64,000 bases of DNA from an uncultured Lachnospiraceae bacterium (GTDB lineage: Bacteria > Bacillota > Clostridia > Lachnospirales > Lachnospiraceae). This document shows, in pieces, positions 3,072 through 63,304 of the stretch (position 1 is the stretch's first letter; the number at the start of each line of letters is the position of its first letter). A program made the translations under genes and the position numbers. Location: assembly GCA_902779395.1 (NCBI GenBank), contig CACZBK010000012.1:62001-126000 (forward strand), given 5' to 3'. The notes below the pieces were generated by a model. The model had not been told where the DNA came from and made no database searches. It saw only the letters and a program-made list of their open reading frames with translations.

Positions 3072-3916
3072 TAAAGCTTGGGGAAAAACAAAAACTTATA
3101 GTCATTAAACAGGTTGACTTCGGTGTCTATCTTGCCGAGAGTGCAGAAAGTGCTGATGAAAGGGTGCTTCTGCCTAAAGCTCAGGTTCCGGAGGGGTGTA
3201 AGACCGGTGATGAGATCGAAGTCTTTATATACAGGGATTCCCGGGACAGACTGATCTCTACAGTAAAGAGCCCTATGATCTCGCTGGATAAGGTTGCGGC
3301 GCTTAAGGTTGTGAGCGTCGGAAAGCAGGGAGCCTTTCTTGACTGGGGGCTGGAAAAGGATCTTTTTCTTCCTTATGCTCAGCAGAGCAGGAAGCTTTCT
3401 GCCGGCGATGAAGTTCTGGTATATCTTTATATAGATAAGAGCGACAGGCTATGTGCCAGTATGAAGGTCTATGATCATCTGAGAACCGACTCTCCGTATA
3501 AAGCGGGGGATGATGTGAACGGCCTGGTATTCCAGGAAAATGAAAATTACGGTATGTTCGTGGCGGTGGATGATATATACAGTGCTGCCATACTGAAACA
3601 GGAACTCTATAAGGATGTTAAGCCCGGAGACCGTATCAGGGCCAGGGTTAGCCGCGTTCGTGAGGACGGAAGGCTGAATTTAAGCGTGCGTGATAAAGCG
3701 CATGTTCAGATATACCCTGATATGGAGTGCATCATTAAGCTTTTGGAAGAATACGGCGGAGTCCTTCCTTTTACCGAGAAAGCTACGCCTGAGGTGATAA
3801 AGCGTGAAACAGGAATGAGCAAGAATGAATTCAAACGTGCTGTCGGACATCTGTATAAAGAGAGAAAGATCAGTATCGAAGAAGGAAGGATCAGGCTGAT
3901 AAGCGATGGACAGTAA
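3068..3916 (+). CDS. cvfB: S1-domain RNA-binding protein, CvfB/YitL family
   Basis: 282 residues with tandem S1-like OB-fold repeats: about residues 1-65, 70-130 and 145-215 (VNGLVFQENENYGMFVAVDD is a typical S1 start). A winged-helix-like C-terminus follows, about 225-280 (TGMSKNEFKRAVGHLYKERK). This order matches CvfB, a conserved virulence and RNA-binding factor of Firmicutes. The four-base overlap with cheV and the 11-base overlap with the next gene place it in one transcription unit. The exact RNA targets are not known for this family. Confidence 0.86.
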   Translation: MIKLGEKQKLIVIKQVDFGVYLAESAESADERVLLPKAQVPEGCKTGDEIEVFIYRDSRDRLISTVKSPMISLDKVAALKVVSVGKQGAFLDWGLEKDLFLPYAQQSRKLSAGDEVLVYLYIDKSDRLCASMKVYDHLRTDSPYKAGDDVNGLVFQENENYGMFVAVDDIYSAAILKQELYKDVKPGDRIRARVSRVREDGRLNLSVRDKAHVQIYPDMECIIKLLEEYGGVLPFTEKATPEVIKRETGMSKNEFKRAVGHLYKERKISIEEGRIRLISDGQ

Positions 3917-4844
3917 AAAGAGCGGTCTGCTTTTTCTTACGATCACAATGGTTTTTGTTGCGATAGAGCTTTTGCTGGGTTTTACTCCGGTGGGGGAAAG
4001 CCTGAATGAAACAGCTCTTATGATAGTCAGCGAGCTGGCTTTTATGGTGCCGGTCGCTGTTTTTTTTGTTATGTGCAGGGAACCTGCTTCAAAAACATTT
4101 GCGCTAAAAGGTGTAAAGATATCCGCGCTGATACTCTGTATCCCCTTTACCTGGACTATTCTTCCGCTTACCCTGCTGCTTAATGTCTTCAGTATGATAT
4201 TTACCGATAACCGCGCAACAAAGATATTTGATAGCCTTTCGGGAGGCGGTTTCCTTAAAATGGCTCTGTTTGCCGCAGTGATCGCTCCGATATGCGAAGA
4301 GCTTACATTCAGGGGCATCATCTTTTCGGGCTTCAGGAAAAACGGCTCGGCTTTGCAGGCTATTCTGATCAGCGCTCTGCTATTCGGACTTTTTCATATG
4401 AATATCAATCAGGCGCTGTATGCTTTTGCACTGGGAGTATTCTTTGGCGCTGTCAGGGAAGTGAGCGGTTCCGTGATACCGACCATAGTATGCCATGTAA
4501 CGGTCAATGGCGGAAGTATGCTGTCGATGTATCTGGAGAAGGATCAGCTTATGGATAAAGAGGTGCTTAAGCAATCGGAGGCATTGTTAAGGGATCCCCG
4601 GACTACTTCGCTTCTCCTGGCGGTTTTTACAGTGGTTTCATTTATAGGAGTGGCATTTGCACTGTGCATGCTTGTACTGATCGCTAAAAAACAGCATGCA
4701 CTTGAGCGGCTGAGAGGGATAATAGACAACGCAAAAACCGGCAACGGAAAGGTATGGAGTATACCTCTTATTGCCGGCATGATACTCGCTGTTGCTTATA
4801 TGATATTTGCTCTGATACTTGAGATCGTATCAAAAAAAGCATAA
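3906..4844 (+). CDS. CPBP-family intramembrane metalloprotease (CAAX protease-like)
   Basis: 312 residues, about eight hydrophobic segments. The family signature is present: CEELTFRG around residue 130 (EExxxR) and a second metal-site motif FGLFHMN about 25 residues later. These proteins are predicted membrane glutamic- or metallo-type proteases related to eukaryotic CAAX prenyl endopeptidases; bacterial members take part in bacteriocin self-immunity or peptide maturation, but most have no known substrate. It overlaps the end of the S1 protein gene and closes this operon. No bacteriocin gene was seen beside it. Confidence 0.87.
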   Translation: MDSKKSGLLFLTITMVFVAIELLLGFTPVGESLNETALMIVSELAFMVPVAVFFVMCREPASKTFALKGVKISALILCIPFTWTILPLTLLLNVFSMIFTDNRATKIFDSLSGGGFLKMALFAAVIAPICEELTFRGIIFSGFRKNGSALQAILISALLFGLFHMNINQALYAFALGVFFGAVREVSGSVIPTIVCHVTVNGGSMLSMYLEKDQLMDKEVLKQSEALLRDPRTTSLLLAVFTVVSFIGVAFALCMLVLIAKKQHALERLRGIIDNAKTGNGKVWSIPLIAGMILAVAYMIFALILEIVSKKA

Positions 4845-5295: not shown

Positions 5296-6387
5296 ATGAT
5301 ATCTAATCAGATCTTGCAAAATACCATTGACGGGATGACAGCGATCGCGCATGTGGAATTTACCGTGACCGATACCGAAGGACGTGCCGTGGTCTCTACC
5401 ATGCAGGAGCGGAAGAATTTTGAAAAAGCCGTTCTGGACTTTGTGCGCTCGTCTGCTGAAAGTCAGGAACAGCAGAATTATCATTTCTTTAAGATCTTTG
5501 ATGAGCAGCAGCTTGAATATGTGCTTATCGTAAACGGCAGCAATGAAAATGCATATCTTGCGGGAAAGATGGCCGCATTCCAGCTGCAGAACCTTCTGGT
5601 TGCCTATAAAGAGAGGTTTGATAAGGATAATTTCATTAAGAATCTGCTTCTTGATAATATGCTGCTGGTAGATATCTACGGCAGAGCCAAGAAGCTGCAC
5701 ATGCCTCTGGATGCAAGGCGTATAGTCATGATCGTCGAAGCTGCAGCCGGCAAGGACAGTAATGCCATTGAACAGGTGAAAGAATGTCTTTCGGCATCAG
5801 GCGGTAAAGATATAGTCACTGCCGTAGATGAAAAGAATGTAGTGGTAGTCAGGGAACTGACGGAAGATGTCACGGCTAAGGATATTGAAAAATCGGCCAA
5901 AAATATCGTCAGCTTTTTGAGCAAGGATAAGACTGAAGGTGTAAAGGTTGCTTACGGAACGGTAGTAAATGAGATAAAAGAAGTAAGCCGTTCCTATAAA
6001 GAAGCAAAGATGGCTCTGGATGTAGGTAAGATCTTCTTCTCGGAAAAAGATGTCATACCTTATAATGAGCTGGGTATAGGCCGTCTTATCTATCAGCTCC
6101 CGCTGCCTCTTTGCAAGATGTTCATACAGGAGATATTTGACGGAAAGAATCCGGAAGAGTTTGATGAGGAGACGCTTACCACCATACATAAATTCTTTGA
6201 AAACAGTCTGAATGTGTCGGAAACCTCAAGACAGCTTTTTATTCACAGGAATACACTGGTGTATCGTCTGGATAAGCTGCAGAAGAGCACCAATCTGGAT
6301 CTTCGGATATTCGAAGATGCCATTACTTTCCGTATAGCTCTGATGGTGGTAGAATACATGAAGTATATGGAAGAACAGAATTATTAA
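5296..6387 (+). CDS. CdaR/PucR-type transcriptional regulator with C-terminal HTH
   Basis: 363 residues. The C-terminal ~60 residues are the PucR-type helix-turn-helix (NSLNVSETSRQLFIHRNTLVYRL read in part), and the middle has a GGDEF-like fold common in this family. The N-terminal ~130 residues resemble the ligand-binding region of CdaR (sugar-diacid regulator). The ATG is preceded by an AAGGAG site. It ends 16 bases before ftsE and probably shares its transcript, so it may control the division and wall-hydrolase genes that follow rather than a catabolic pathway. The ligand is unknown. Confidence 0.78.
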   Translation: MISNQILQNTIDGMTAIAHVEFTVTDTEGRAVVSTMQERKNFEKAVLDFVRSSAESQEQQNYHFFKIFDEQQLEYVLIVNGSNENAYLAGKMAAFQLQNLLVAYKERFDKDNFIKNLLLDNMLLVDIYGRAKKLHMPLDARRIVMIVEAAAGKDSNAIEQVKECLSASGGKDIVTAVDEKNVVVVRELTEDVTAKDIEKSAKNIVSFLSKDKTEGVKVAYGTVVNEIKEVSRSYKEAKMALDVGKIFFSEKDVIPYNELGIGRLIYQLPLPLCKMFIQEIFDGKNPEEFDEETLTTIHKFFENSLNVSETSRQLFIHRNTLVYRLDKLQKSTNLDLRIFEDAITFRIALMVVEYMKYMEEQNY

Positions 6388-24426: not shown

Positions 24427-24537
24427 ACCGTACCCTCCAAGATGTTCAGGCAGACCATTCATCGTATCCTATATATTGTGCCTTTAAACAGCTGATTTGT
24501 CAACCTATTTAAATAGTAGTGAAATAGAGGAAAGGTG

Positions 24538-27003
24538 ATGGCTTGCAGTAGAGACTTGTTTAGGGGTATAATGATCAGTATGGAAGATCTAAGAGACGTA
24601 CATTATGATGCTTTTATCAGTTATAAGCACAGTGAGCTCGATTCTTTCGTGGCGGAGAACCTCCATAAGAAGCTGGAGGCTTTTAAGCTGCCAAAGTCCG
24701 TACTTCCGAAAGTCAAAAACGGAAAGACCAGGATAGAAAGGGTCTTCCATGATGTTGATGAACTTAACCTCTCTGAAAATCTTGCGGATCCCATAAATAA
24801 CGCACTAAGGAATTCGGATTATCTTATAGCGGTCTGTACTCCAAGGTATCCGGGATCCGAGTGGTGTATCAAAGAGATAGAGGTGTTCTTACAGACTCAT
24901 GATCATGAGCACGTTCTGGTGGTTTTGGCAGAAGATGAACCCTGCAATTCCTTTCCGGAAATACTCACATATGAAGAATATACCCGGATAGATGAAAACG
25001 GTAAAAAAATAACTGAGAGAAGAGAGCTGGAGCCTCTTGCGGCTGACACCAGGGGGGCGGATAAAAAAGAGATCATGAGGGCGATCGATAATGCCGTGAT
25101 AAAGCTCTGTTCGGTGATCTTTGACCTTAATTACGACGATCTTAAACAGCGGCATCGTGAACGGAAGATAAAGCAGATGATATCCGTCTTTTCCGTGGCT
25201 GCTGCGATGATCCTGCTGTTCGCAGTATCGGCTATGGCCATGCTCATAAGGATAAGTTCGCAAAATACCACAATACAGCAGCAGTATGCTGTCCTTCAGG
25301 ACAAGTACGCAGGCACTATGGCAGATGCGAGCCGGAGGCTTCTGGGTGAAGGAAGGAGGAAGGATGCGGTTTATGCTGCAAGATCGGTCCTGCCGGATGA
25401 TCCGGCCCGGCCCCGTAACAGCAGTGCGGTCAGCAGCCTTTATTCTGCGCTTGCTGTATATGGTACGGGGGATAGATACGAGCCGGTGTGTGTTTATGAT
25501 ACAGGCAGGGAGATCGTTACGTATGAGATATCCTGTGACGGCCGTTACGTTATGCTATACGATACGGTGAGCGTATCGGTATTTGACAGGGATACGGCCG
25601 AGCTTATCATCTCGGTTAAGACGGGTGATGACGGGCATTCCGGAGATATGACAGGAGGAGTATTCTGCGGTCCTGACGGATTTATCGTGTGCTCCGATGG
25701 CGGAACGGAATACATTTCCCTTAAGGGAATGGGAAGAAAGAGACTGACGGATATCGATCCGTATTCATCTTTTTTCAGCTCTGCCGACGGGATCATCACG
25801 ATCGCATATTCTGATGATGTACTGAAAGGGATAGACCCATCCGGAAACATCGCTTATGTGATAGATCTGGCTCAGGAATTCGATGCCGGGTTTATGGATG
25901 TTCAGGATGTGAGCTTTGACAACGGAAATTTCTGCATCAGCCTGATCAGCGGAAATGAATATCATATTCTGGCTGCGGATGAGCAGCTTGGCAGAAAGTT
26001 CACATCATTTTCCGGAGAAGGCAATGTGATGATCAGGACAGCTATTGACGGAGATATTCTGTATTACAGTATTTTTGATTATTCGGATTACGGAAGCGAT
26101 ATGTGGACTACGGTATTCGCTTTCAACCGTCTGTCCGGCCAAAAGCTGTGGGAAAAAGATATACCGGATATGAACTGTATGGATATCTGTACTTCGGAAG
26201 AGTATGTATTTATTTATGATAAGTATTCGGCAGTCGTTCTGGATAAGAAAACAGGAAGGCCTCAAAATGTCATTACTACGGAAAATCCGGTGGTAAACGG
26301 ATGGATCGAAGGAGAGAGTCTGTTTCTCGCAAAGTCAAACGGAGAGTTTTTTATCTGTGATGAGGCATTGAAATATGCTGCTGTTGATGATATCCGGAAA
26401 GTGCAGTCAAAGCTGGTATCAGAGTATACTTATAACGGTGACCGTTACCTTCTGTTTGACGGAGCGGCTTATCTGGTACGCTACAGCAGAGAGGATAAGC
26501 TGTACATAGAAGACCTTGAAGATATTTATAACGTGAAGAGATATGATGCTTCTGATGCGACAGAGGCTTTTACGCAGGAAGATATGACCGCCGTGGATAA
26601 AGCCTTCTTTTCGGATGATGAAAAGTATATTTATGCACAGTTTCACGATCACAGTTGCGGTATTTATGACGCTCTTACCATGGAACTCATTGCTTCCCCG
26701 GATATTCCGGAATCTTATTTATGCAGGCTCGAGTATTCGGATATAGCGGAATGCTATATACTCAGCAGTTTTTATAAGTCGTATTTTCTGGATGATGAGT
26801 TTAATGTATTCTGCATCACAGACTGCATAGCCGGCAGTGAGAAAGACCGTTTTATCATGGTGGATTCTTCAAATGATGCTGTGAGTGTACCTTATGTTTC
26901 CTATGAGCAGCTGCTTAAGACAGCAGATGCTTATCTTGACGGATATATCCCGCCTGAGCGTATCAGGCAGAAATATAACATCATGGCGCAGGAGGACCGG
27001 TGA
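24538..27003 (+). CDS. TIR-domain protein with membrane segment and propeller-like C-terminus
   Basis: 821 residues. The TIR domain (about 16-170) starts with YDAFISYKH and contains SEWCIKEIE. The Glu of this WCxxE motif is the catalytic residue of NAD-cleaving TIR enzymes. A charged helix is followed by one membrane segment (about 215-238). The remaining ~540 residues show repeated beta-strand patterns like a WD40 or quinoprotein propeller, but no strict repeat motif. The layout suggests a cytoplasmic TIR anchored to an extracellular beta-rich domain. ATG 24538 has a GAGGAAAGG site; ATG 24571 or 24580 would also keep the whole TIR fold. Function, including any role in defence, is unproven. 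Confidence 0.82.
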   Translation: MACSRDLFRGIMISMEDLRDVHYDAFISYKHSELDSFVAENLHKKLEAFKLPKSVLPKVKNGKTRIERVFHDVDELNLSENLADPINNALRNSDYLIAVCTPRYPGSEWCIKEIEVFLQTHDHEHVLVVLAEDEPCNSFPEILTYEEYTRIDENGKKITERRELEPLAADTRGADKKEIMRAIDNAVIKLCSVIFDLNYDDLKQRHRERKIKQMISVFSVAAAMILLFAVSAMAMLIRISSQNTTIQQQYAVLQDKYAGTMADASRRLLGEGRRKDAVYAARSVLPDDPARPRNSSAVSSLYSALAVYGTGDRYEPVCVYDTGREIVTYEISCDGRYVMLYDTVSVSVFDRDTAELIISVKTGDDGHSGDMTGGVFCGPDGFIVCSDGGTEYISLKGMGRKRLTDIDPYSSFFSSADGIITIAYSDDVLKGIDPSGNIAYVIDLAQEFDAGFMDVQDVSFDNGNFCISLISGNEYHILAADEQLGRKFTSFSGEGNVMIRTAIDGDILYYSIFDYSDYGSDMWTTVFAFNRLSGQKLWEKDIPDMNCMDICTSEEYVFIYDKYSAVVLDKKTGRPQNVITTENPVVNGWIEGESLFLAKSNGEFFICDEALKYAAVDDIRKVQSKLVSEYTYNGDRYLLFDGAAYLVRYSREDKLYIEDLEDIYNVKRYDASDATEAFTQEDMTAVDKAFFSDDEKYIYAQFHDHSCGIYDALTMELIASPDIPESYLCRLEYSDIAECYILSSFYKSYFLDDEFNVFCITDCIAGSEKDRFIMVDSSNDAVSVPYVSYEQLLKTADAYLDGYIPPERIRQKYNIMAQEDR

Positions 27004-27045: not shown

Positions 27046-29004
27046 ATGAAAGCATATGATCATGAATATTTAAAATTATTGTCGAAGCAGTATCCTACGA
27101 TAGCGGCGGCGTCGACGGAGATCGTCAATCTTCAGTCGATACTTAATCTTCCTGCGGCTACCGAACATTTCATCTCGGATGTGCATGGTGAATTTGAACA
27201 GTTCAATCATGTGCTCAGAAACGGATCCGGAGCCATAAGAAGAAAGATAGATGAGGGTTTTGGCAATACCCTGACCCAGAAGGATAAGAGGGATCTGGCA
27301 GCGCTTATCTATTATCCGGAAGAACGCCTCCAGCTGATCATAGAGGAAGAGGAAAATCTGGATGACTGGTACAGGATCATGCTCCATCGTCTGGTACAGG
27401 TGACCAAACGTGCGGCTTCCAAATATACCAGGTCAAAAGTACGTAAGGCTTTGCCCAGGGATTTTGCCTATATCATAGAGGAACTTATCACCGAAAAGGA
27501 AGAGATCGAGGATAAGGAACGTTATTATAATGAGATAATCCATACGATCATCCGTATAGGCAGGGCAAAGGAATTTATCATAGCCCTGTCCGAACTTATC
27601 CAAAGGCTGGTGGTCGATCATCTCCATATAGTCGGCGACATATATGACAGGGGCCCCGGTCCGCATATGATCATGGACATGCTGATGGAACATCATTCCG
27701 TTGATATACAATGGGGCAATCACGATATCAGCTGGATAGGCGCGGCTGCGGGGTCTGCGGCATGTATCGCGACGGTACTCAGGATATCTGCCCGTTACGG
27801 TAATCTGAACATACTTGAGGAAGGGTATGGTATCAATCTGGTCCCGCTGGCTAAATTTGCGCTTGAGACCTACGGAGATGATCCCTGTGAAGTGTTTTCC
27901 ATACGCGGCGGAAAGGATTACGATACCCGTGACATGGCTCTGGACATGAAGATGCATAAGGCTATAACAATACTTCAGCTCAAACTGGAAGGACAGCTTA
28001 TAAAACGCTGTCCCTGCTTTGGGATGGAGGACCGTCTTTTACTGGATAAGATCGATCTGAAAAAAGGCTGCATCACTCTGGACGGAAAGACATATACTCT
28101 TAAGGACAAGAGCTTTCCGACCATCGATCCTGCCGATCCTTATGACCTTTCGGCCGAGGAATATGTGGTGATGGGCAAGCTCAAACAGGCCTTTCTGCAC
28201 AGCGAAAAGCTGCAGAAGCATGTGCGTTTTCTTCTGGCTAAGGGAGGGCTGTATAAGGTACATAACGGGAATCTTCTATATCACGGCTGTGTACCGCTGA
28301 ATGCGGACGGCTCATTTAAGAGTGTAAACCTTTTCGGGAAGAAGCTTTCGGGACGGGCTTTGTATGATGCCCTGGAAAGCTATGTCCGTAAAGGCTATTA
28401 CTCTAAGGAAGAAAGGCAGGAGCGGCGCAGGGGCCTGGATGTTATGTGGTATATCTGGGCCGGGCCCGGTTCACCTGTGTTCGGGAAAGACAAGATGGCT
28501 ACTTTCGAATCCTATTTTATAGAAGATAAAAAAGCATCCTCTGAAATAAAAAACAGTTATTACAGATTATATGAACAGGAGGAGGTGCTGGATAAGATCC
28601 TGGCAGAATTCGGTCTTGATCCTAAGGGAGCACATATAATAAACGGACATGTGCCGGTACAGGTAAAGAAAGGGGATACACCCTTAAAATGCGGAGGAAA
28701 GCTCCTTATAATCGACGGAGGGTTTTCAAAGGCATATCATTCAAAGACCGGTATATCGGGCTATACGCTGATAGTAAATTCTCACGGGATGTGGCTTGTT
28801 GCCCATGAACTATTTGAATCAAAAGAGGCATCGGTTCTCAAAGGGACGGATATCATATCGGATTCGTTTGCGGTTGAAGAGTATGGCAGGAGGCATTTTG
28901 TGGCCGATACGGATATAGGTGCGGAGCTTAAGCGGAGCATTGCCGGACTGGAGGCTCTCCTGGATGCGTACAGAGAGGGTGAGCTTAAGGAGAAAGGGGA
29001 CTGA
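27046..29004 (+). CDS. fbp: Fructose-1,6-bisphosphatase, class III
   Basis: 652 residues, the full length of the Firmicutes class III enzyme, which dephosphorylates fructose 1,6-bisphosphate in gluconeogenesis. The metallophosphoesterase signature is readable as SDVHGEF near residue 44, GDIYDRGPG near 197, and WGNHDISW near 225, with further His ligands downstream (INGHVPV). An AAGGAGA site precedes the ATG. It makes fructose 6-phosphate, the precursor of the amino-sugar pathway encoded directly after it, but a separate promoter and ribozyme divide the two units. Confidence 0.95.
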   Translation: MKAYDHEYLKLLSKQYPTIAAASTEIVNLQSILNLPAATEHFISDVHGEFEQFNHVLRNGSGAIRRKIDEGFGNTLTQKDKRDLAALIYYPEERLQLIIEEEENLDDWYRIMLHRLVQVTKRAASKYTRSKVRKALPRDFAYIIEELITEKEEIEDKERYYNEIIHTIIRIGRAKEFIIALSELIQRLVVDHLHIVGDIYDRGPGPHMIMDMLMEHHSVDIQWGNHDISWIGAAAGSAACIATVLRISARYGNLNILEEGYGINLVPLAKFALETYGDDPCEVFSIRGGKDYDTRDMALDMKMHKAITILQLKLEGQLIKRCPCFGMEDRLLLDKIDLKKGCITLDGKTYTLKDKSFPTIDPADPYDLSAEEYVVMGKLKQAFLHSEKLQKHVRFLLAKGGLYKVHNGNLLYHGCVPLNADGSFKSVNLFGKKLSGRALYDALESYVRKGYYSKEERQERRRGLDVMWYIWAGPGSPVFGKDKMATFESYFIEDKKASSEIKNSYYRLYEQEEVLDKILAEFGLDPKGAHIINGHVPVQVKKGDTPLKCGGKLLIIDGGFSKAYHSKTGISGYTLIVNSHGMWLVAHELFESKEASVLKGTDIISDSFAVEEYGRRHFVADTDIGAELKRSIAGLEALLDAYREGELKEKGD

Positions 29005-29007
29005 TAC

Positions 29008-29036
29008 TTGCAATATATAGTGTATTAGTATATACT
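29008..29036 (+). promoter_or_regulatory. Promoter of the glmS-ribozyme / nagB transcript
   Basis: TTGCAA and TATACT are separated by exactly 17 bases, starting four bases after the fbp stop codon. Transcription would begin near 29043, about 44 bases before the ribozyme cleavage site, which leaves a short leader as expected for this riboswitch class. Confidence 0.78.
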
Positions 29037-29074
29037 TTTGATGTTTAAAACACAATTTGTGCGTGGAGGGCATC

Positions 29075-29246
29075 ACGATTGTGTTAGCGCCGGGACCATG
29101 ATCGGTTGACGAGGTCAGCAGCTATCGAAAGATTCGGCGGGTGCTGCTGCGGCCTTCGCAGGGGTCGAGAGAAAGAGGGTAAAAAGCAGAATCAAAACTG
29201 TAACAGAGACTCTTTCATTACTGCGCTACACTACAAAAGAGGAGAT
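29075..29246 (+). ncRNA. glmS ribozyme (glucosamine-6-phosphate-activated self-cleaving riboswitch)
   Basis: The conserved core is readable in order. The cleavage site A|GCGCC falls between 29086 and 29087. GGACC pairs with GGUU of helix P1, then come GUUGACGAGG (29105-29114), the AGCAGC/GCUGCU helix, UAUCGA (29123-29128) and UUCGGCGGGUGC (29133-29144). A CUGCG/CGCAG hairpin and an A-rich 3' domain follow, ending at the AAAAGAGGAG ribosome binding site of nagB. Known ribozymes of this class use glucosamine 6-phosphate as a cofactor, cleave their mRNA and trigger its decay. Here the gene directly controlled is nagB, not glmS. A translated frame over the ribozyme in front of nagB is spurious. 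Confidence 0.95.
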
Positions 29247-29255
29247 TTTTTATAT

Positions 29256-30047
29256 ATGAGAGTTGTTATTCAGGATGATTACGATAAGATGTGTAAATGG
29301 GCAGCGAACTATATCGCTGCAAAGATAAACGGACATAAAGAAGCACGTCCCTTTGTGCTGGGGCTTCCTACAGGATCCTCGCCCATAGGGGTATATAAGG
29401 AACTGGTACGCATGAACAAGGCAGGGGAACTTTCCTTTGCCAATGTTGTGACCTTCAATATGGACGAATATCTGGGACTGCCCCGTGAGCATGATCAGAG
29501 TTACTGGTATTTCATGCACGATAATCTGTTCAACCATCTGGTGGACATGAAGCCGGAGAATATAAATATTTTAAACGGTATGACAGACGATCCCGAAGGG
29601 GAGTGCGCAAGGTACGAGGAGAAGATAGCTTCCTATGGCGGCATAGACCTGTTCATGGGCGGTATCGGCGTAGACGGACATCTTGCATTCAATGAGCCTT
29701 ATACCAGCCTGACTTCCCGCACAGGTGTGCGTGATCTTACCACCGACACAAGGATAGTCAACAGCAGATTTTTCGGCAATGATCCGGAGAAGGTCCCTGC
29801 TAAAGCGCTTTCCGTAGGCATAGGTACCGTTACAGATTCAAAAGAGGTGCTGGTGCTCATTTCCGGTCATAATAAGGCGCGTGCACTGGCGGCTACCGTG
29901 GAAGGCGGCGTAAGCCAGAAATGGACCTGCTCTGCGCTGCAGATGCATAACGGAGCCATCATCGCCTGCGATGAAGAAGCCTGCGGCGAGCTTACCGTAG
30001 ATACATATAAGTACTTCCTGGATATCGAGAAGAAAGAGAGGTTATAA
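29256..30047 (+). CDS. nagB: Glucosamine-6-phosphate deaminase
   Basis: 263 residues. It catalyses the reversible conversion of glucosamine 6-phosphate to fructose 6-phosphate and ammonia. Motifs fit NagB: GLPTGSSPIGVYKEL (phosphate loop), FNMDEYLGL (catalytic Asp), GGIGVDGHLAFNEP (catalytic His and Glu). The start is the ATG at 29256 after an AAAGAGGAG site; an in-frame ATG at 29106 lies inside the ribozyme and is rejected. The next start is one base after the stop. Its place behind a glmS ribozyme and before glmM suggests that it may run in the synthetic direction, or that its level is tuned against glucosamine 6-phosphate. Confidence 0.95.
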   Translation: MRVVIQDDYDKMCKWAANYIAAKINGHKEARPFVLGLPTGSSPIGVYKELVRMNKAGELSFANVVTFNMDEYLGLPREHDQSYWYFMHDNLFNHLVDMKPENINILNGMTDDPEGECARYEEKIASYGGIDLFMGGIGVDGHLAFNEPYTSLTSRTGVRDLTTDTRIVNSRFFGNDPEKVPAKALSVGIGTVTDSKEVLVLISGHNKARALAATVEGGVSQKWTCSALQMHNGAIIACDEEACGELTVDTYKYFLDIEKKERL

Positions 30048-30048
30048 G

Positions 30049-30714
30049 ATGTATACGATCAAAGATCTGTATGACCTGGATCATACATTGGCTAAAGATT
30101 ACCTGCTTCAGTTCACTTATCCCTGGGAAGCACTTAAAGGTATTAAGGAGTTTATACTTGAACTGGGCCCCACGCTGGGAGATGAATATGAAGAGCGTGA
30201 GGAGCATGTATGGGTGCACAAGACTGCTAAGGTTTTTCCAAGCGCTTATCTGGGTGCTCCCTGCATCATAGGACCGAATACCGAGGTGCGCCACTGTGCA
30301 TTTATCCGTGGTTCGGCTCTGGTAGGTGCAGACTGTGTTGTGGGTAATTCCGTGGAGCTTAAGAACGTGATACTCTTTGATCATGTTCAGACTCCTCATT
30401 ATAATTATGTCGGAGATTCGATACTTGGCTACTATTCACATATGGGAGCAGGATCCATCACTTCCAATGTGAAGTCCGATAAGAAGCTGGTAGTGGTCCA
30501 TAACGGTACCGAAGAGATGGAGACAGGTATCAAGAAGTTCGGCGCCATGCTGGGCGATCATGTGGAAGTAGGATGCAACAGTGTCTGCAATCCCGGTACC
30601 GTAGTGGGAAGGAATTCCAATGTATATCCCACTTCCTGCGTACGCGGGGTGGTACCTGAGAATTCCATCTGGAAAAATAACGGAGAGATTGTGAGGAAAA
30701 GAGATAATGGGTAA
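30049..30714 (+). CDS. Left-handed beta-helix protein, GlmU acyltransferase-like
   Basis: 221 residues. From about residue 60 the sequence shows hexapeptide repeats of a left-handed parallel beta-helix (for example IIGPNTEVRH, ALVGADCVVGNSVEL, GAGSITSNVKS). The short loop with HYNYVGDS resembles the C-terminal acetyltransferase half of GlmU. The pyrophosphorylase half is missing. It may acetylate glucosamine 1-phosphate or make a related nucleotide-sugar precursor; similar proteins are annotated as UDP-N-acetylglucosamine pyrophosphorylase-like. It sits one base after nagB and overlaps glmM by eight bases, which supports an amino-sugar role. Confidence 0.82.
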   Translation: MYTIKDLYDLDHTLAKDYLLQFTYPWEALKGIKEFILELGPTLGDEYEEREEHVWVHKTAKVFPSAYLGAPCIIGPNTEVRHCAFIRGSALVGADCVVGNSVELKNVILFDHVQTPHYNYVGDSILGYYSHMGAGSITSNVKSDKKLVVVHNGTEEMETGIKKFGAMLGDHVEVGCNSVCNPGTVVGRNSNVYPTSCVRGVVPENSIWKNNGEIVRKRDNG

Positions 30715-32056
30715 ATATTTCGGAACTGACGGCTTTCGTGGCGAAGCTAACAAGAATTTGACATTTGATCATGCCATAAAGATCGGCCGTTTCCTGGGCT
30801 GGTACTACGGGGCGAAGGAAGGCAAGAAGGCCAAGATCGTCATAGGCAAGGATACCAGACGTTCAAGCTATATGTTTGAATATGCGCTGTGCACCGGGCT
30901 TATGGCATCCGGAGCCGATGCATATATCATGCACGTTACCACTACTCCTTCAGTGGCTTATATCACGCGTGTTGATGATTTTGACTGCGGTATAATGATA
31001 TCCGCATCACATAACCCTTACTATGATAACGGCATCAAGCTTTTGAACGGCAAGGGCGAGAAGATGGACGAAGAGACCATCTTAAAGGTAGAGGATTATA
31101 TCGACGGAAAGCTTGATATACCGGTAGCGGAGCGTGACAGCATAGGACGCACCGTTGATTATGTGGCAGGACGTAACCGTTATATCGGTTATCTGATATC
31201 CATGTCAAAGTACAGCTTTAAGGATGTAAAGGTTGGACTGGATGTGGCAAACGGCGCCGCATGGCAGATAGCAAAGGGCGTGTTTGATGCACTGGGCGCA
31301 AAGACTTATGTGATGAATGACAGCCCCGACGGATACAATATCAATACGGACTGTGGGTCCACACATATCGAGCATCTTCAGAAGTTTGTGGTGGAGAAAG
31401 GCCTGGATGTGGGCTTTGCCTACGACGGAGATGCAGACCGCTGCCTCTGCGTGGATGAAAAGGGCAATGTGATCACAGGCGATCATATCCTTTATATCTA
31501 CGGTCTGTATATGAAGGAGCGCGGAAAGCTCCTGAATAACAAGGTGGTAACCACCATCATGAGCAATTTCGGCCTGTACAAGGCACTTGATAAAGTGGGC
31601 ATCGAATATGAGAAGACCAAGGTGGGCGATAAATATGTATATGAGAATATGGTGACTAACGGACACCGTATCGGCGGCGAGCAGAGCGGACATATCATAT
31701 TTACCAAATATGCTACCACCGGAGACGGCATACTTACTTCACTTAAGATGATGGAAGTAATGCTGGCAAAGGAAAAGCCCATGAGCGAGCTGGCAGCTCC
31801 CGTAGTCTTCTATCCCCAGGTGCTCAAGAACGTGAGGGTAAAGAGCAAACCCGATGCGCAGAACGATCCCAAGGTTCAGGAGGCTGTTTCAAAAGTTGCA
31901 GCAGAGCTGGGAGATGACGGACGCATACTGGTGCGTGAGAGCGGAACCGAGCCTGTTATCCGCGTAATGGTTGAAGCAGGAAGTGATGAGATCTGCGAAA
32001 AATATGTAGACAGCGTGATAGATGTGATACGCGCGCAGGGACATATAGCAGAATAA
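30707..32056 (+). CDS. glmM: Phosphoglucosamine mutase
   Basis: 449 residues, normal for GlmM, converting glucosamine 6-phosphate to glucosamine 1-phosphate for peptidoglycan precursors. Motifs: N-terminal KYFGTDGFRGEAN, phosphoserine loop SASHNPYYDNG near residue 101, metal loop DGDADR near 242, and RESGTEPVIRVM near 410. It overlaps the preceding gene, so the nagB / beta-helix / glmM set is one operon. A strong terminator follows. Because GlmM is essential in most bacteria, its placement under the ribozyme is notable. Confidence 0.95.
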   Translation: MGKYFGTDGFRGEANKNLTFDHAIKIGRFLGWYYGAKEGKKAKIVIGKDTRRSSYMFEYALCTGLMASGADAYIMHVTTTPSVAYITRVDDFDCGIMISASHNPYYDNGIKLLNGKGEKMDEETILKVEDYIDGKLDIPVAERDSIGRTVDYVAGRNRYIGYLISMSKYSFKDVKVGLDVANGAAWQIAKGVFDALGAKTYVMNDSPDGYNINTDCGSTHIEHLQKFVVEKGLDVGFAYDGDADRCLCVDEKGNVITGDHILYIYGLYMKERGKLLNNKVVTTIMSNFGLYKALDKVGIEYEKTKVGDKYVYENMVTNGHRIGGEQSGHIIFTKYATTGDGILTSLKMMEVMLAKEKPMSELAAPVVFYPQVLKNVRVKSKPDAQNDPKVQEAVSKVAAELGDDGRILVRESGTEPVIRVMVEAGSDEICEKYVDSVIDVIRAQGHIAE

Positions 32057-32069
32057 AGCAAGCAGGAAG

Positions 32070-32109
32070 GACTGCCGCATTCCGGGATAGGAGTGGGCAG
32101 TCTTTTTTT
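32070..32109 (+). terminator. Intrinsic terminator after glmM
   Basis: A seven-base-pair stem (GACTGCC / GGCAGTC), extended by weaker inner pairing, is followed by seven T residues. It ends the ribozyme-controlled operon before the glycosyltransferase and glmS genes. Confidence 0.85.
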
Positions 32110-32119
32110 AGGATAGTTT

Positions 32120-33046
32120 ATGAAGACTGTGGATGTGATCATTCCGGTATATAAACCGGATATAAGACTTAAAAAGATCATAAGCAGATTACGGCAGCAG
32201 ACTTATCCCGTAAACAGGATAATACTGATAAACACCGGGCGTGTTTATTTTGAACAGGCCTTCGGGGAGGATATGTCATTTTTTGAGACTGATGATATAG
32301 TGCTGCGACATATAAGCGAGGAGCAGTTTGATCACGGTTCTACCAGGCGAATGGCTGTATCGATATCAAAGGCGGATTATTTTGTATGCATGACCGATGA
32401 TGCACTGCCGGCAGACAGGCATCTTATAAAGGAGCTTACTGCTCCGCTTATGGAGGGGAAGGCTTCCGCGGCATATGCCAGGCAGCTTGCGGGAAAAGAT
32501 GCCGATATAGTGGAGAAGTTCTCAAGGCGGTTTAATTATCCGGCAGTGTCGAGGATAAAGAACAGTCAGGATTTTGATGAGCTGGGCATAAAAACATTTT
32601 TCTGCTCAAACGCCTGCGCCGCTTACGAGCGGAAAACCTATGATAAGCTGGGCGGATTCGAAAAGCATATGATATTTAATGAAGACATGGTCTACGCAGG
32701 CAGACTGGTGGACTCCGGTGCATCCATAGCTTATGTTGCAGAAGCAAGGGTGCTCCATACCCATCATTATACCGCCATGCAGCAGCTCAAGCGCAATTTT
32801 GATCTGGGCGTGTCACAGGCGCAGTTTCCCGAGCTCTTTAACAGGGTATCTTCGCAGTCGGAAGGCATACGTATGATAAGGGGAATGCTTGGAACGCTGC
32901 TTAAAAAGAATGAGTACAATAAAATACCCTCAGTCATTATAAACTCCGCATTTAAATTGGCCGGATACAAACTGGGGAAGGCTTATAAAAAGCTTCCGCA
33001 GTGGCTTATCATGAAGCTCACGATGAACAGAAACTACTGGAGGTAA
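32120..33046 (+). CDS. Family 2 glycosyltransferase, rhamnosyltransferase-like
   Basis: 308 residues with a GT-A fold: VDVIIPVYKPD at the N-terminus, FDHGSTRRMA typical of bacterial rhamnosyltransferases, the MTDDALP donor site, and FNEDMVYAGR as the catalytic base region. The C-terminus is basic, with weak hydrophobic patches. It lies between the terminator of the glmM operon and glmS; the start is only 11 bases after the T-run, with an AGGAT site. It may be transcribed by read-through or from a promoter within glmM. The acceptor is unknown, perhaps a wall polysaccharide. Confidence 0.85.
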   Translation: MKTVDVIIPVYKPDIRLKKIISRLRQQTYPVNRIILINTGRVYFEQAFGEDMSFFETDDIVLRHISEEQFDHGSTRRMAVSISKADYFVCMTDDALPADRHLIKELTAPLMEGKASAAYARQLAGKDADIVEKFSRRFNYPAVSRIKNSQDFDELGIKTFFCSNACAAYERKTYDKLGGFEKHMIFNEDMVYAGRLVDSGASIAYVAEARVLHTHHYTAMQQLKRNFDLGVSQAQFPELFNRVSSQSEGIRMIRGMLGTLLKKNEYNKIPSVIINSAFKLAGYKLGKAYKKLPQWLIMKLTMNRNYWR

Positions 33047-33049
33047 TAT

Positions 33050-33074
33050 GAGCTTAGCGACCCCAGGAGGCGAA
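33050..33074 (+). repeat. Partial copy of an intergenic repeat upstream of glmS
   Basis: Twenty-five bases match 53188-53212 with two differences (GAGCTTAGCGACC shared at the left end). It is a remnant of the structured intergenic repeat described at 53076-53220 and lies in the short leader before glmS. Confidence 0.6.
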
Positions 33075-33132
33075 AAAGTGAGGCAGATAAGAAAGTTTCC
33101 GGTGTGCATAGAAAAGTTAGGAGGAACGCATT

Positions 33133-34974
33133 ATGTGCGGAATAGTAGGATATATAGGTAAAAACCAGGCGGCGCCCATCATACTGGGCGGTCTGGAAAA
33201 ACTGGAATACAGAGGCTATGACTCTGCAGGCATGGCCATAATAAATGAAGACGGAAAACTTACATATGAGAAATCGGTTGGAAGGCTTAAGGTACTTGAT
33301 GAGCTTACTCATGGCGGAAGCCTCCTGCCGGGGCATGCCGGTATAGGCCATACACGCTGGGCTACACACGGTGTTCCCAGCAACGAGAATGCCCACCCTC
33401 ATTTTAATGAGGCAGAGACTATTGCGGTAGTACATAACGGTATCATAGAAAACTATATACAGCTTCGTGACAAGCTTATAAAGAAGGGCTATAAATTTCA
33501 CTCGGAAACGGACACGGAAGTACTTGCCCACATGCTTGACCGTTATTATAAAGGGAATCCTCTGGAGACCATAACGCGTGTTATGCACCGTGTGGAAGGC
33601 TCATATGCACTGGGGATAATTTTTTCCGATCATCCCGATGAGATATATGCTGTCCGCAAGGATTCACCGCTGGTAGTCGGGCGTAATGACGAAGGCTGCT
33701 TTATAGCATCCGATGTGCCTGCCATGCTTAAACATACCCGTACAGTATATTATGTTGAAAATCAGGAGATAGCATGTCTCAGGGCAGATGAGCTTCATTT
33801 TTATTCTATTGATGAAGAGGAACTTGAGAAAGAACCCACGCAGATCGACTGGGATACTAATGCAGCTGAAAAAGGCGGCTATGAACATTTTATGTTAAAG
33901 GAGATGTATGAGCAGCCAAAAGCGATAAGGGAGACTCTGATACCCCAGAACAATCCACGCATCAAAAATAACGATATCGTTATAGATGAACTTAATATGA
34001 GCGATGATGAGATAAAGGCCATCAGAAAGATACATATAGTGGCATGCGGATCGGCATATCATGCCGGTATGAGCGGTAAGCATGTGATAGAAGGCCTTGC
34101 AAGGATCCCTGTTGAAGTTGATCTGGCTTCGGAATTCCGCTATCGTGATCCGATTATAGAAGAGGGTGCACTGGTCATTGTAATAAGCCAGTCCGGAGAG
34201 ACCGCGGATACCAAGGAAGCCTTGCATCTGGCCCAGAATAAGGGATTTCCCGTGCTGGGTATTGTGAATGTGGTAGGCAGTGCCATAGCCCGTGAAGCTG
34301 ATAAGGTAATGTATACCTGGGCAGGGCCGGAGATAGCAGTGGCAACTACAAAAGCCTATAGTGCCCAGCTGATAGCTCTTTATCTGTTAGCCATGAAATT
34401 CGCAAGGGTAAGGGGAACGGTTACCGATGATTATTTTAAAACCCTGCTTGAAGATATACAGCGCCTGCCGGATCAGGTTGAGCTGCTTCTTGAGAGCAGG
34501 AAAAGGATACAGCGTTTTGCAAACCGTTATATAGGTGCAAAGGATGTTTTCTATATAGGCCGCGGAGCTGATTATGCCACTGCACTTGAGAGTGCACTCA
34601 AGCTTAAGGAAATATCCTATGTGCATTCGGAGGCTTATGCTGCGGGAGAGCTTAAGCACGGTACCATATCTCTTATAGAAGAAGGTACGCTTGTTACGGC
34701 ACTTGCTACCCAGGAAGCGCTGTATCAGAAGACGATCAGTAATATGGTGGAAGTAAAGAGCCGCGGAGCTTTTGTGCTGGCAGTGACCAATGAAGGAAAC
34801 AAGGATATAGAAAAAGCTGCCGATTATGTGATACATATACCTACAACGAATCAGTGGATGGCTAACAGTCTGGCGATAGTACCCATGCAGCTTTTTGCAT
34901 ACTATGTGGCGCTTGGTAAAGGCTGTGATATCGACAAGCCCAGAAATCTTGCAAAGTCGGTTACCGTAGAGTGA
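33133..34974 (+). CDS. glmS: Glutamine-fructose-6-phosphate aminotransferase (isomerising)
   Basis: 613 residues. It makes glucosamine 6-phosphate from fructose 6-phosphate and glutamine, the committed step to UDP-GlcNAc. The N-terminal MCGIVGYIG carries the catalytic Cys2 of the glutaminase domain (about 1-225). Two SIS sugar-isomerase domains follow (about 290-425 and 460-595), with SQSGETADT as the sugar-phosphate loop and the conserved KSVTVE end. An AGGAGG site lies before the ATG. Unusually, the 86-base upstream gap has no ribozyme; the ribozyme is 4 kb upstream at nagB. Confidence 0.96.
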   Translation: MCGIVGYIGKNQAAPIILGGLEKLEYRGYDSAGMAIINEDGKLTYEKSVGRLKVLDELTHGGSLLPGHAGIGHTRWATHGVPSNENAHPHFNEAETIAVVHNGIIENYIQLRDKLIKKGYKFHSETDTEVLAHMLDRYYKGNPLETITRVMHRVEGSYALGIIFSDHPDEIYAVRKDSPLVVGRNDEGCFIASDVPAMLKHTRTVYYVENQEIACLRADELHFYSIDEEELEKEPTQIDWDTNAAEKGGYEHFMLKEMYEQPKAIRETLIPQNNPRIKNNDIVIDELNMSDDEIKAIRKIHIVACGSAYHAGMSGKHVIEGLARIPVEVDLASEFRYRDPIIEEGALVIVISQSGETADTKEALHLAQNKGFPVLGIVNVVGSAIAREADKVMYTWAGPEIAVATTKAYSAQLIALYLLAMKFARVRGTVTDDYFKTLLEDIQRLPDQVELLLESRKRIQRFANRYIGAKDVFYIGRGADYATALESALKLKEISYVHSEAYAAGELKHGTISLIEEGTLVTALATQEALYQKTISNMVEVKSRGAFVLAVTNEGNKDIEKAADYVIHIPTTNQWMANSLAIVPMQLFAYYVALGKGCDIDKPRNLAKSVTVE

Positions 34975-35008
34975 TATCAAAGCAATGACCGATAGAAAAA
35001 CTTAGAAT

Positions 35009-35623
35009 ATGGAAAGTGAAAACACAGTATTCTATCTTGGGAAAAAGGAAGAGAGTGCCGGTGATAATGCTGATGCGGGAACCGGAAAAAAATACCGCAC
35101 AGCTCTCAGCGGCGATCTTCCTTTTGCCCTGGAAACATATAACGATAAGTGGCACAGTGAGTCAAATCTGGAAAGGGTAGAAGAGCTTTCAAAAAAATGC
35201 GAGCGCCGGTCTATGGTGGTAAGGAGGATGATATACCTTGAACGCAGGCAGACCGAGATAATATCCGCAATGATGGGAAACGGCAAACGTTTCTACAAAG
35301 CGAAGCAGCCTTTTGTGATCTCCGGTCCGCTGCTGATCACTGCACCGGTACTTATCCCTTTTCTTGTATGGTCGGCTACATTTACCCTTGTGATCCCAAT
35401 TATCGCGATCATTATTTTTATCACGATCATCATAACATGCTTTACGATAGATAAAAGGGTTCATGAAAGAAAGGAAGAAGAGCTTTCCTGGAAGCTTAAG
35501 GGAATAGAGATCGAGCATGAAGAGCTTGAAACAGAGAAAGCAGAACTTGATATAGAGATAAGTAAACTGAGAAAGATCGATGAAGACAGCCGGGTGAAGA
35601 AAAATGAACGGAATCAGGAATGA
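35009..35623 (+). CDS. Hypothetical membrane protein with C-terminal coiled coil
   Basis: 204 residues, not assigned to a family. A charged N-terminal ~105 residues precede two closely spaced hydrophobic segments (about 110-130 and 132-155), then a Glu/Lys-rich helix (about 156-204) with coiled-coil character. The ribosome binding site is weak. It overlaps the next gene by 20 bases, so it belongs with the DUF3021-like and LytTR genes. A role in anchoring or sensing is possible but not shown. Confidence 0.68.
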   Translation: MESENTVFYLGKKEESAGDNADAGTGKKYRTALSGDLPFALETYNDKWHSESNLERVEELSKKCERRSMVVRRMIYLERRQTEIISAMMGNGKRFYKAKQPFVISGPLLITAPVLIPFLVWSATFTLVIPIIAIIIFITIIITCFTIDKRVHERKEEELSWKLKGIEIEHEELETEKAELDIEISKLRKIDEDSRVKKNERNQE

Positions 35624-63224: not shown

Positions 63225-63304
63225 GCGGCTATGGCGGAACTGGCAGACGCGCCAGGTTTAGGTCCTGGTCCGAGAGGGTGCAGGTTCGAGTCCTGTTAGC
63301 CGCA
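63225..63304 (+). tRNA. tRNA-Leu (anticodon UAG)
   Basis: The cloverleaf can be built completely. The acceptor stem is GCGGCTA / TAGCCGC. The anticodon stem CCAGG/CCTGG encloses the loop TTTAGGT, giving anticodon TAG. The T-arm is GCAGG-TTCGAGT-CCTGT, and A is the discriminator base. The variable arm is short for a leucine tRNA. The CCA end is not encoded. Confidence 0.95.

Follow-up and report, generated by a model that had tools for sequence, protein, structure and literature searches.

Why should a ribozyme that responds to glucosamine 6-phosphate (GlcN6P) head the gene of an enzyme able to consume that compound? The question is raised by a stretch of 64,000 nucleotides (nt) from an uncultured Lachnospiraceae bacterium (assembly GCA_902779395.1, contig CACZBK010000012.1, positions 62,001 to 126,000 of the forward strand), the whole of which is called the window below. 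A preliminary description, made by reading its letters, had recognized the core of a glmS ribozyme in front of three genes: nagB, coding for a GlcN6P deaminase, a GlmU-like gene, and glmM. The second of them encodes a left-handed beta-helix protein, LbH, and the three together are referred to as the module. The same arrangement was found in other genomes, and the ribozyme probably is a GlcN6P-sensing feedback brake on an ammonia-using operon of hexosamine synthesis, nagB-LbH-glmM. Coordinates are reported in Table 1.

The core seen by eye was confirmed with the Rfam covariance model RF00234, which cmscan aligned over its entire length (positions 1-167 of 167) with 67.6 bits (E 2.1e-13), above the gathering threshold of 37 required for membership of the class; a chance match is ruled out by this score together with the covariation described below. 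The motifs AGCGCC, GACGAGG, UCGA and UCGGCGG follow each other in this order, with P2 and P2.1 paired, and the cleavage site expected from the match, A29086/G29087, is the one that the preliminary description had named. By folding, P3 is a helix of 7 bp and P4 has four pairs only, with a poor fit to the model; the folding energy of the whole ribozyme is little better than that of shuffled sequences (z -1.2). RF00234 elements are typically found in the 5' leader of glmS, although this location does not define the class; here, nagB starts 29 nt after the end of the ribozyme. The match is the only one in the 3.58 Mb of the window's own genome, the assembly to which all single-copy statements refer, and glmS is therefore without a ribozyme of its own.

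The preliminary description had proposed surveying related genomes for the gene following the ribozyme. A search with RF00234 covered 35 genomes from the window's genus and 299 from its family, with matches in 9 and 60 of them, respectively; binning errors of metagenome-assembled genomes are possible. The ribozyme heads the module at all 9 loci from the genus search and at 11 of the 60 from the family search, or, since the window is in both, at 19 of 68 distinct loci. When the first of nagB, LbH, glmM and glmS downstream is taken, it is glmS at 49 loci, nagB at 13 and LbH at 6. One of the 13 nagB cases, a decayed ribozyme (L068, genome G290; 30.1 bits, below the gathering threshold), lacks the AGCGCC start and precedes a truncated nagB, an apparent case of joint loss.

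In a class-level sample of 391 genomes, 148 had the ribozyme, with 150 matches in all. Three of these (G000, G213, G290) were not new, and 130 of the remaining 147 loci were read. The ribozyme directly heads glmS at 124 of the 130 (111 assigned by script, 13 reassigned by reading its list). The exceptions are a locus with glmS about 1.5 kb further on (L320), one with nagB-LbH-glmM (L339) and one with LbH-glmM (L334), which has no nagB in the stretch read. Thus, the ribozyme as a rule precedes glmS, with the nagB module as a clear second home, rare outside the window's family in the class sample. At three further loci (L279 in G366, L309 in G421, L328 in G502) none of the four genes lies within about 2.5 kb downstream of the match, and the core of L328 deviates from the consensus. 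Two genomes contain two glmS ribozymes each: in G484 they are about 1.3 kb apart on one strand (C39:2273-2521 and 3851-4098), in G624 on contigs 1 and 2.

A NagB profile, built from 15 NagBs, all of them ribozyme-linked, was run on the genome_contigs database (84,980 species) and confirmed at least 579 relatives, the best 80 of which were analyzed. As a finder of ribozymes beside them, a covariance model, R1, was trained on 32 ribozymes, of which 18 are nagB-linked; the RNAalifold structure behind it represents a rough P2.1 only, and its scores are bimodal. A ribozyme was found beside 38 of the 80 loci, with 64.6 to 92.3 bits, the next match scoring 12.8. L137 and L172, at least, duplicate genomes already covered by the genus and family searches; both come from the genomes of two R1 training rows, or nearly so. 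The first gene after the ribozyme is nagB at 30 of these loci, LbH at 7 and glmM at one, while glmS ends the run at L169 and L202. According to record titles, the carriers belong to Lachnospiraceae, to Oscillospiraceae or Ruminococcaceae, and to Erysipelotrichaceae; among the best 80, loci from Chloroflexota and Spirochaetota are all ribozyme-free. One locus with the operon, L167 (Ruminococcaceae bacterium P7), presumably comes from an isolate. The titles of the 80 loci name ruminants in 32 cases and RUG codes, which we take to mean rumen uncultured genomes, in 27, the other 21 being different or unstated; for the 38 ribozyme loci the same split is 9, 16 and 13, and these numbers lack a background rate for comparison.

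Covariation was evaluated on 53 of the 57 nagB-linked ribozymes, omitting three near copies (L073, L137, L172) and the decayed L068. Within P2 and P2.1, 99.9% of the 742 cells are paired, against 27-61% when the structure is slid along the alignment. Changes on both sides occur in 7 of the 14 pairs (shuffle mean 4.1), for a total of 54 cells compared with 12.4 in shuffles. Since gene order varies and the core covaries, the link between ribozyme and module is under selection. Together with recurrence, these observations are strong evidence that the ribozyme is attached to nagB-LbH-glmM.

On a NagB tree the ribozyme label is clustered, requiring 15 changes against 34.9 with shuffled labels, most branches being unsupported; a single origin of the link is neither shown nor excluded by these sequences. 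At L042, L146, L169, L185 and L192, NagB is 84-95% identical to that of the window and GlmS 54-56%; the corresponding values are 77% and 54% for L202, and 94% and 69% for L071. In the closest relatives (L069, L070, L073) both proteins are 97-100% identical to the window's. The comparison covers NagB and GlmS only.

The NagB of the window is of the long E. coli type, its best solved matches being 7lqm, 3hn6 and 5hj5, and it exceeds the TIGR00502 cut-off. Asp70, Glu71, Asp140, His142 and Glu147, which presumably correspond to catalytic-region residues of the E. coli enzyme, are kept in all 97 rows of the NagB alignment, a few of which are identical. The E. coli enzyme contacts its activator, N-acetylglucosamine 6-phosphate (GlcNAc6P), through Tyr121, Asp141, Glu148, Ser151, Arg158, Lys160 and Tyr254 (PMC4281351). 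This full set is absent from the alignment: Arg158 is replaced by Gly, Lys160 by Arg and Ser151 by Thr in 97 of 97 rows, while the five solved NagB sequences compared have Arg and Lys at positions 158 and 160. The change is also present in the 42 ribozyme-free rows, so it is not confined to ribozyme-linked NagBs.

LbH, 221 residues long, matches only positions 314-434 of the GlmU model TIGR01173. Its similarity is to the acetyltransferase halves of GlmU and of the bifunctional sugar-1-phosphate enzymes of archaea, and it has no nucleotidyltransferase half; it is therefore not a bifunctional GlmU (uridylyltransferase plus acetyltransferase), and may be a glucosamine 1-phosphate (GlcN1P) acetyltransferase, judging by its sequence. 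At L294 (G623) and L311 (G396), an LbH gene (62-68% identity) comes immediately after ribozyme-glmS, linking LbH with hexosamine synthesis in a further family. A structure model of LbH had a mean predicted local distance difference test score of 56, and was not used. GlmM is assigned by its family model (541.5 bits, TIGR01455 cut-off 447.55).

Gene content was compared in 42 genomes: 21 of the 35 genus members (9 with and 12 without ribozyme) and 21 more from the family, namely 10 carrying the module, 10 with ribozyme-glmS (G293 and 9 more) and one (G078) without a listed ribozyme. Module genomes thus number 19. The window's own genome has one glmM above cut-off and one LbH; glmM is single in 17 of 18 genomes (two in G331), and LbH likewise in 17 of 18, G024 having an additional, distant match of 24%. 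GlmU above cut-off was found in none of the 42, while 9 of 14 control genomes pass, and a separate N-terminal half of GlmU is present in G103, G177 and G213. Among the 21 genus members, this nagB occurs in 9/9 with the ribozyme and in 0/12 without it; 11 of these 12 have no nagB match and the other, G009, has a nagB of the B. subtilis type. LbH is present in 11 of the 12, 64-69% identical (beside GlmM in G003). G030, of the same genus, retains a 95% identical LbH and a 90% identical GlmM, having neither nagB nor ribozyme. The gene nagA exceeds its cut-off in 4 of the 19 module genomes, against 6 of the 7 in which a B. subtilis-type nagB is above cut-off (Fisher p 0.005, taking genomes as independent), and in the window's own genome it is neither beside nagB nor above cut-off elsewhere. 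That genome also has a 598.8-bit match to TIGR00649, which we take to be the RNase J family. G009, 96% complete, is the only one of the 42 without glmS above cut-off; it has no ribozyme, and does have an LbH gene.

The RNA element begins earlier than the preliminary description had it: the core lies where it was placed, and a leader hairpin, here called P0, adjoins the cleavage site, ending one nucleotide before the scissile phosphate, as in other nagB-type leaders. An upstream complement to a 5-nt 3' arm in this position exists in 42 of 54 distinct nagB-type leaders; with arms swapped among loci, the mean is 21.4 and the maximum 30. For a 6-nt arm the figures are 29 of 54 and at most 16. The two sets of glmS-type leaders show no such excess for 5 nt (10/48 and 9/29, swapped means 9.0 and 8.0). 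GGAGG occurs in the 50 nt preceding the cleavage site in 43 of 56 leaders of the nagB type (shuffle mean 4.1), in 16 of 48 glmS-type leaders of the family (0.9) and in 7 of 30 of the class (0.8), the shuffles preserving base composition only. In 60-nt stretches it lies inside a hairpin loop in 34 of the 42 distinct nagB-type leaders that bear it and in 10 of 17 glmS-type ones of the family. A start codon at usable distance follows in 13 of the 42, ATG in 8 of them; a leader peptide is thus not general, and some leaders may encode one. Bacillus mRNAs can be stabilized without translation by leaders with a strong Shine-Dalgarno sequence or an occluded 5' end, and RNase J1 degrades the cleaved glmS mRNA of B. 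subtilis, which bears a 5'-OH (both PMC3997798). The hairpin abutting the cleavage site in most nagB-type copies is a new detail, and is perhaps a 5' stabilizer of the mRNA that cleavage removes.

The "good promoter" of the preliminary description did not hold up: TTGCAA-17-TATACT is no better than chance, 12 promoter-like sites being found in 28900-35200 and 10.9 +/- 3.3 expected from shuffled sequence. The presence of TTGCAA-17-TATAAT at equal distance from the cleavage site in L069, L070 and L073 supports it weakly, these being close relatives.

How, then, would the switch make sense? For a catabolic NagB, being turned off at high GlcN6P would be perverse; for a NagB acting as a synthase, the same switch would be end-product feedback. 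NagB would combine fructose 6-phosphate and NH4+ into GlcN6P, GlmM would convert this into GlcN1P, and LbH would acetylate the latter to N-acetylglucosamine 1-phosphate. Plentiful GlcN6P would activate the ribozyme and the leader would be cut at 29086/29087; the resulting 5'-OH mRNA would be open to decay by RNase J, and NagB, LbH and GlmM would fall. The preliminary description had considered that the operon might be a biosynthetic unit. This idea receives indirect support: the changed activator site, the scarcity of nagA, the sole copies of glmM and LbH within the operon and the rumen as an ammonia-rich habitat point to synthesis, to which the lack of a GlmU above cut-off and the co-occurrence of ribozyme and nagB in the genus may be added. 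The retention of glmS goes the other way, and suggests two parallel routes, one dependent on glutamine and one on ammonia, rather than a replacement.

Several observations weigh against the feedback brake. NagB is not the only route to GlcN6P, since glmS is above cut-off in 19/19 module genomes (41 of the 42 overall), and a replacement of lost glmS by NagB is thereby ruled out. No ribozyme accompanies 42 of the 80 NagB loci, 19 of them with LbH and/or GlmM near nagB and 23 without. An Rfam scan of 11 of these 42 found only signal recognition particle (SRP) RNA, tRNA and a thiamine pyrophosphate riboswitch lying more than 4 kb beyond nagB, and thus no other regulatory RNA fitting a place before the module; at L173, the SRP RNA gene (5827-5926) stands just upstream of a ribozyme-free nagB-glmM pair. 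In P2 and P2.1 of the 53 copies, further pair types are no more frequent than in shuffles (13 against 13.1). At the activator site, two of the replacements (Lys by Arg, Ser by Thr) are conservative, and the four remaining contacts are retained, with one exception at Tyr121. Four module genomes (G072, G086, G244, G267) do have nagA, and three genus members (G001, G026, G033) have nagA without any nagB match, so nagA alone says little. With glmM repressed alongside nagB, consumption of GlcN6P would slow down as well. The affinity for ammonium is reported for eGNPDA, which we take to be the E. coli enzyme. Its Km for NH4+ is high, 31.4 mM (PMC11593775), and NagB enzymes are usually catabolic at cellular concentrations (PMC4281351).

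Other explanations start from the same facts. The operon might be a general hexosamine unit in which the ribozyme mainly sets GlmM and LbH, and NagB is carried along as a safety valve burning surplus GlcN6P. That these two genes are sole copies in the window's own genome, that one of them comes first at 8 of the 38 ribozyme loci, that L334 shows no nagB, and that glmS is retained throughout would all fit. A valve shut by rising GlcN6P would work backwards, however, and G030 lacks nagB along with the ribozyme while keeping the other two genes; we hold this explanation unlikely. Less probable still is that NagB serves, as an ordinary deaminase, the breakdown of imported glucosamine, the ribozyme being a relic of a former ribozyme-glmS locus. 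The strong NagB family match, nagA in 4/19 module genomes and the vicinity of glmS to the module at L042, L146, L169, L185, L192 and L202, and in the relatives L069-L071 and L073, agree with it. Erosion would be expected of a relic, but the core is conserved and covaries across 53 copies, and the only decayed copy encountered, that of G290, accompanies a truncated nagB; moreover, the B. subtilis-type NagBs seen in the family and genus (eight, of which four adjoin nagA) are of a different type, 37-42% identical to the window's.

The leader leads to an explanation that is compatible with the feedback brake, and that we regard as rather doubtful as the chief role of the ribozyme: cleavage would strip off a 5' stabilizing element, made of hairpin and GGAGG, so that mRNA lifetime would be regulated by this loss and not by a new entry site for decay. 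The frequency of GGAGG in nagB-type leaders, its location in a hairpin loop, the excess of complementary arms over swapped ones and the stabilizing leaders of Bacillus speak for it. The 13 of 56 nagB-type leaders without GGAGG do not, nor does the presence of the motif in glmS-type leaders, by which it is not peculiar to nagB, nor the start codon that follows it in some leaders and may open a leader peptide.

Table 1. Features of the window around the ribozyme, with the evidence for each.
Feature	Positions	Strand	Evidence
Class III fructose-1,6-bisphosphatase (product fructose 6-phosphate), upstream neighbour	27046..29004	+	PF06874, 999.7 bits
Candidate promoter TTGCAA-17-TATACT	29008..29036	+	consensus scan, not above chance
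Leader hairpin P0, GGAGG (29065-29069) in upper loop	29049..29085	+	folding, z -2.5
glmS ribozyme, RF00234	29075..29226	+	cmscan 67.6 bits; P2/P2.1 covariation over nagB-linked copies
nagB, GlcN6P deaminase, E. coli type, altered activator site	29256..30047	+	TIGR00502, 374.8 bits (cut-off 236.9)
LbH, left-handed beta-helix, GlmU C-terminal-like	30049..30714	+	below all NCBIfam cut-offs, above that of Pfam Hexapep
glmM, phosphoglucosamine mutase	30707..32056	+	TIGR01455, 541.5 bits (cut-off 447.55)
Terminator-like hairpin with U tract, operon end	32064..32108	+	-27.8 kcal/mol, z -6.5
Family 2 glycosyltransferase, next unit	32120..33046	+	PF00535, 48 bits (cut-off 23.3)
glmS, glutamine-dependent GlcN6P synthase, own ribozyme absent	33133..34974	+	TIGR01135, 785.5 bits

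The three genes of the module are separated by one base or overlap by a few. The hairpin closing the operon is not among the terminators found by the consensus scan, though folding singles it out. The preliminary description, which had correctly placed the ribozyme ahead of nagB, a GlmU-like gene and glmM, had taken it to stand there instead of glmS. The synthase gene is not missing: it lies about 1.1 kb downstream of the module on the same strand, past the terminator-like hairpin and the glycosyltransferase gene. Elsewhere in the window, the N-terminal part (DAFISYKHSE...) of the protein encoded at 24535-27003 looks TIR-like by eye, and a tRNA gene is found at 63225-63304 (54.5 bits).

With the B. 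subtilis-type ribozyme in front of glmS, the window's copy shares the core, P2/P2.1, a P3 helix predicted by folding, the expected cleavage site and the presence of an RNase J-family gene in the genome. It differs in its short P4 and in the gene that it heads, glmS being elsewhere and ribozyme-free; nagB-linked copies differ from the B. subtilis type also in the abutting leader hairpin, often with GGAGG. Most nagB-linked copies have the loop UCGAAAGAYUCGGCGG, also seen in two glmS-type copies (L048, L054). A NagB-family enzyme making GlcN6P from fructose 6-phosphate and ammonia exists in Giardia, a eukaryote in which we know of no ribozyme. It is efficiently aminating, with a Km for NH4Cl of 19-23 mM, its activity is unmodified by GlcNAc6P, and, like the window's type, it has lost some activator contacts (PMC4281351). 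The Giardia enzyme, GlmNagB, keeps the counterpart of Arg158 and is missing other contacts (same source); in the window's type, by contrast, both Arg158 and Lys160 are replaced. Catabolic nagA-nagB operons share the nagB gene, which has no adjoining nagA in the window. In the bifunctional GlmU and archaeal enzymes (PDB 5z09, 2ggo; the archaeal one presumably ST0452), the beta-helix acetyltransferase part is what LbH matches, and the nucleotidyltransferase half is what it lacks.

A compilation by McCown from 2011 reportedly placed all but two of 463 glmS ribozymes in glmS mRNAs; rare exceptions would thus be known already. A glmS ribozyme before nagB is not mentioned in the titles and abstract openings of the glmS-ribozyme literature searched, nor in the available portions of PMC10668854, PMC7967978 and PMC7525490, and a literature search pairing the ribozyme with the rumen found nothing.

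On a wider scale, we tentatively suggest, and would not be surprised to be wrong, that ribozyme-nagB-LbH-glmM is a portable operon of gut anaerobes, mainly of ruminants, spread over several bacterial groups; it would supply precursors of UDP-N-acetylglucosamine from ammonia beside GlmS, the ribozyme clipping off, in response to GlcN6P, a removable 5' stabilizer made of a hairpin and its Shine-Dalgarno-like loop. In textbooks, the glmS ribozyme exemplifies one switch for one gene, and a recurrent second home means its reuse on other enzymes dealing with the same metabolite. It offers a leader layout whose stabilizer may be removed by cleavage, and predicts that a "catabolic" NagB would work as a synthase at high ammonia, by which the question of a biosynthetic NagB in bacteria becomes directly testable.

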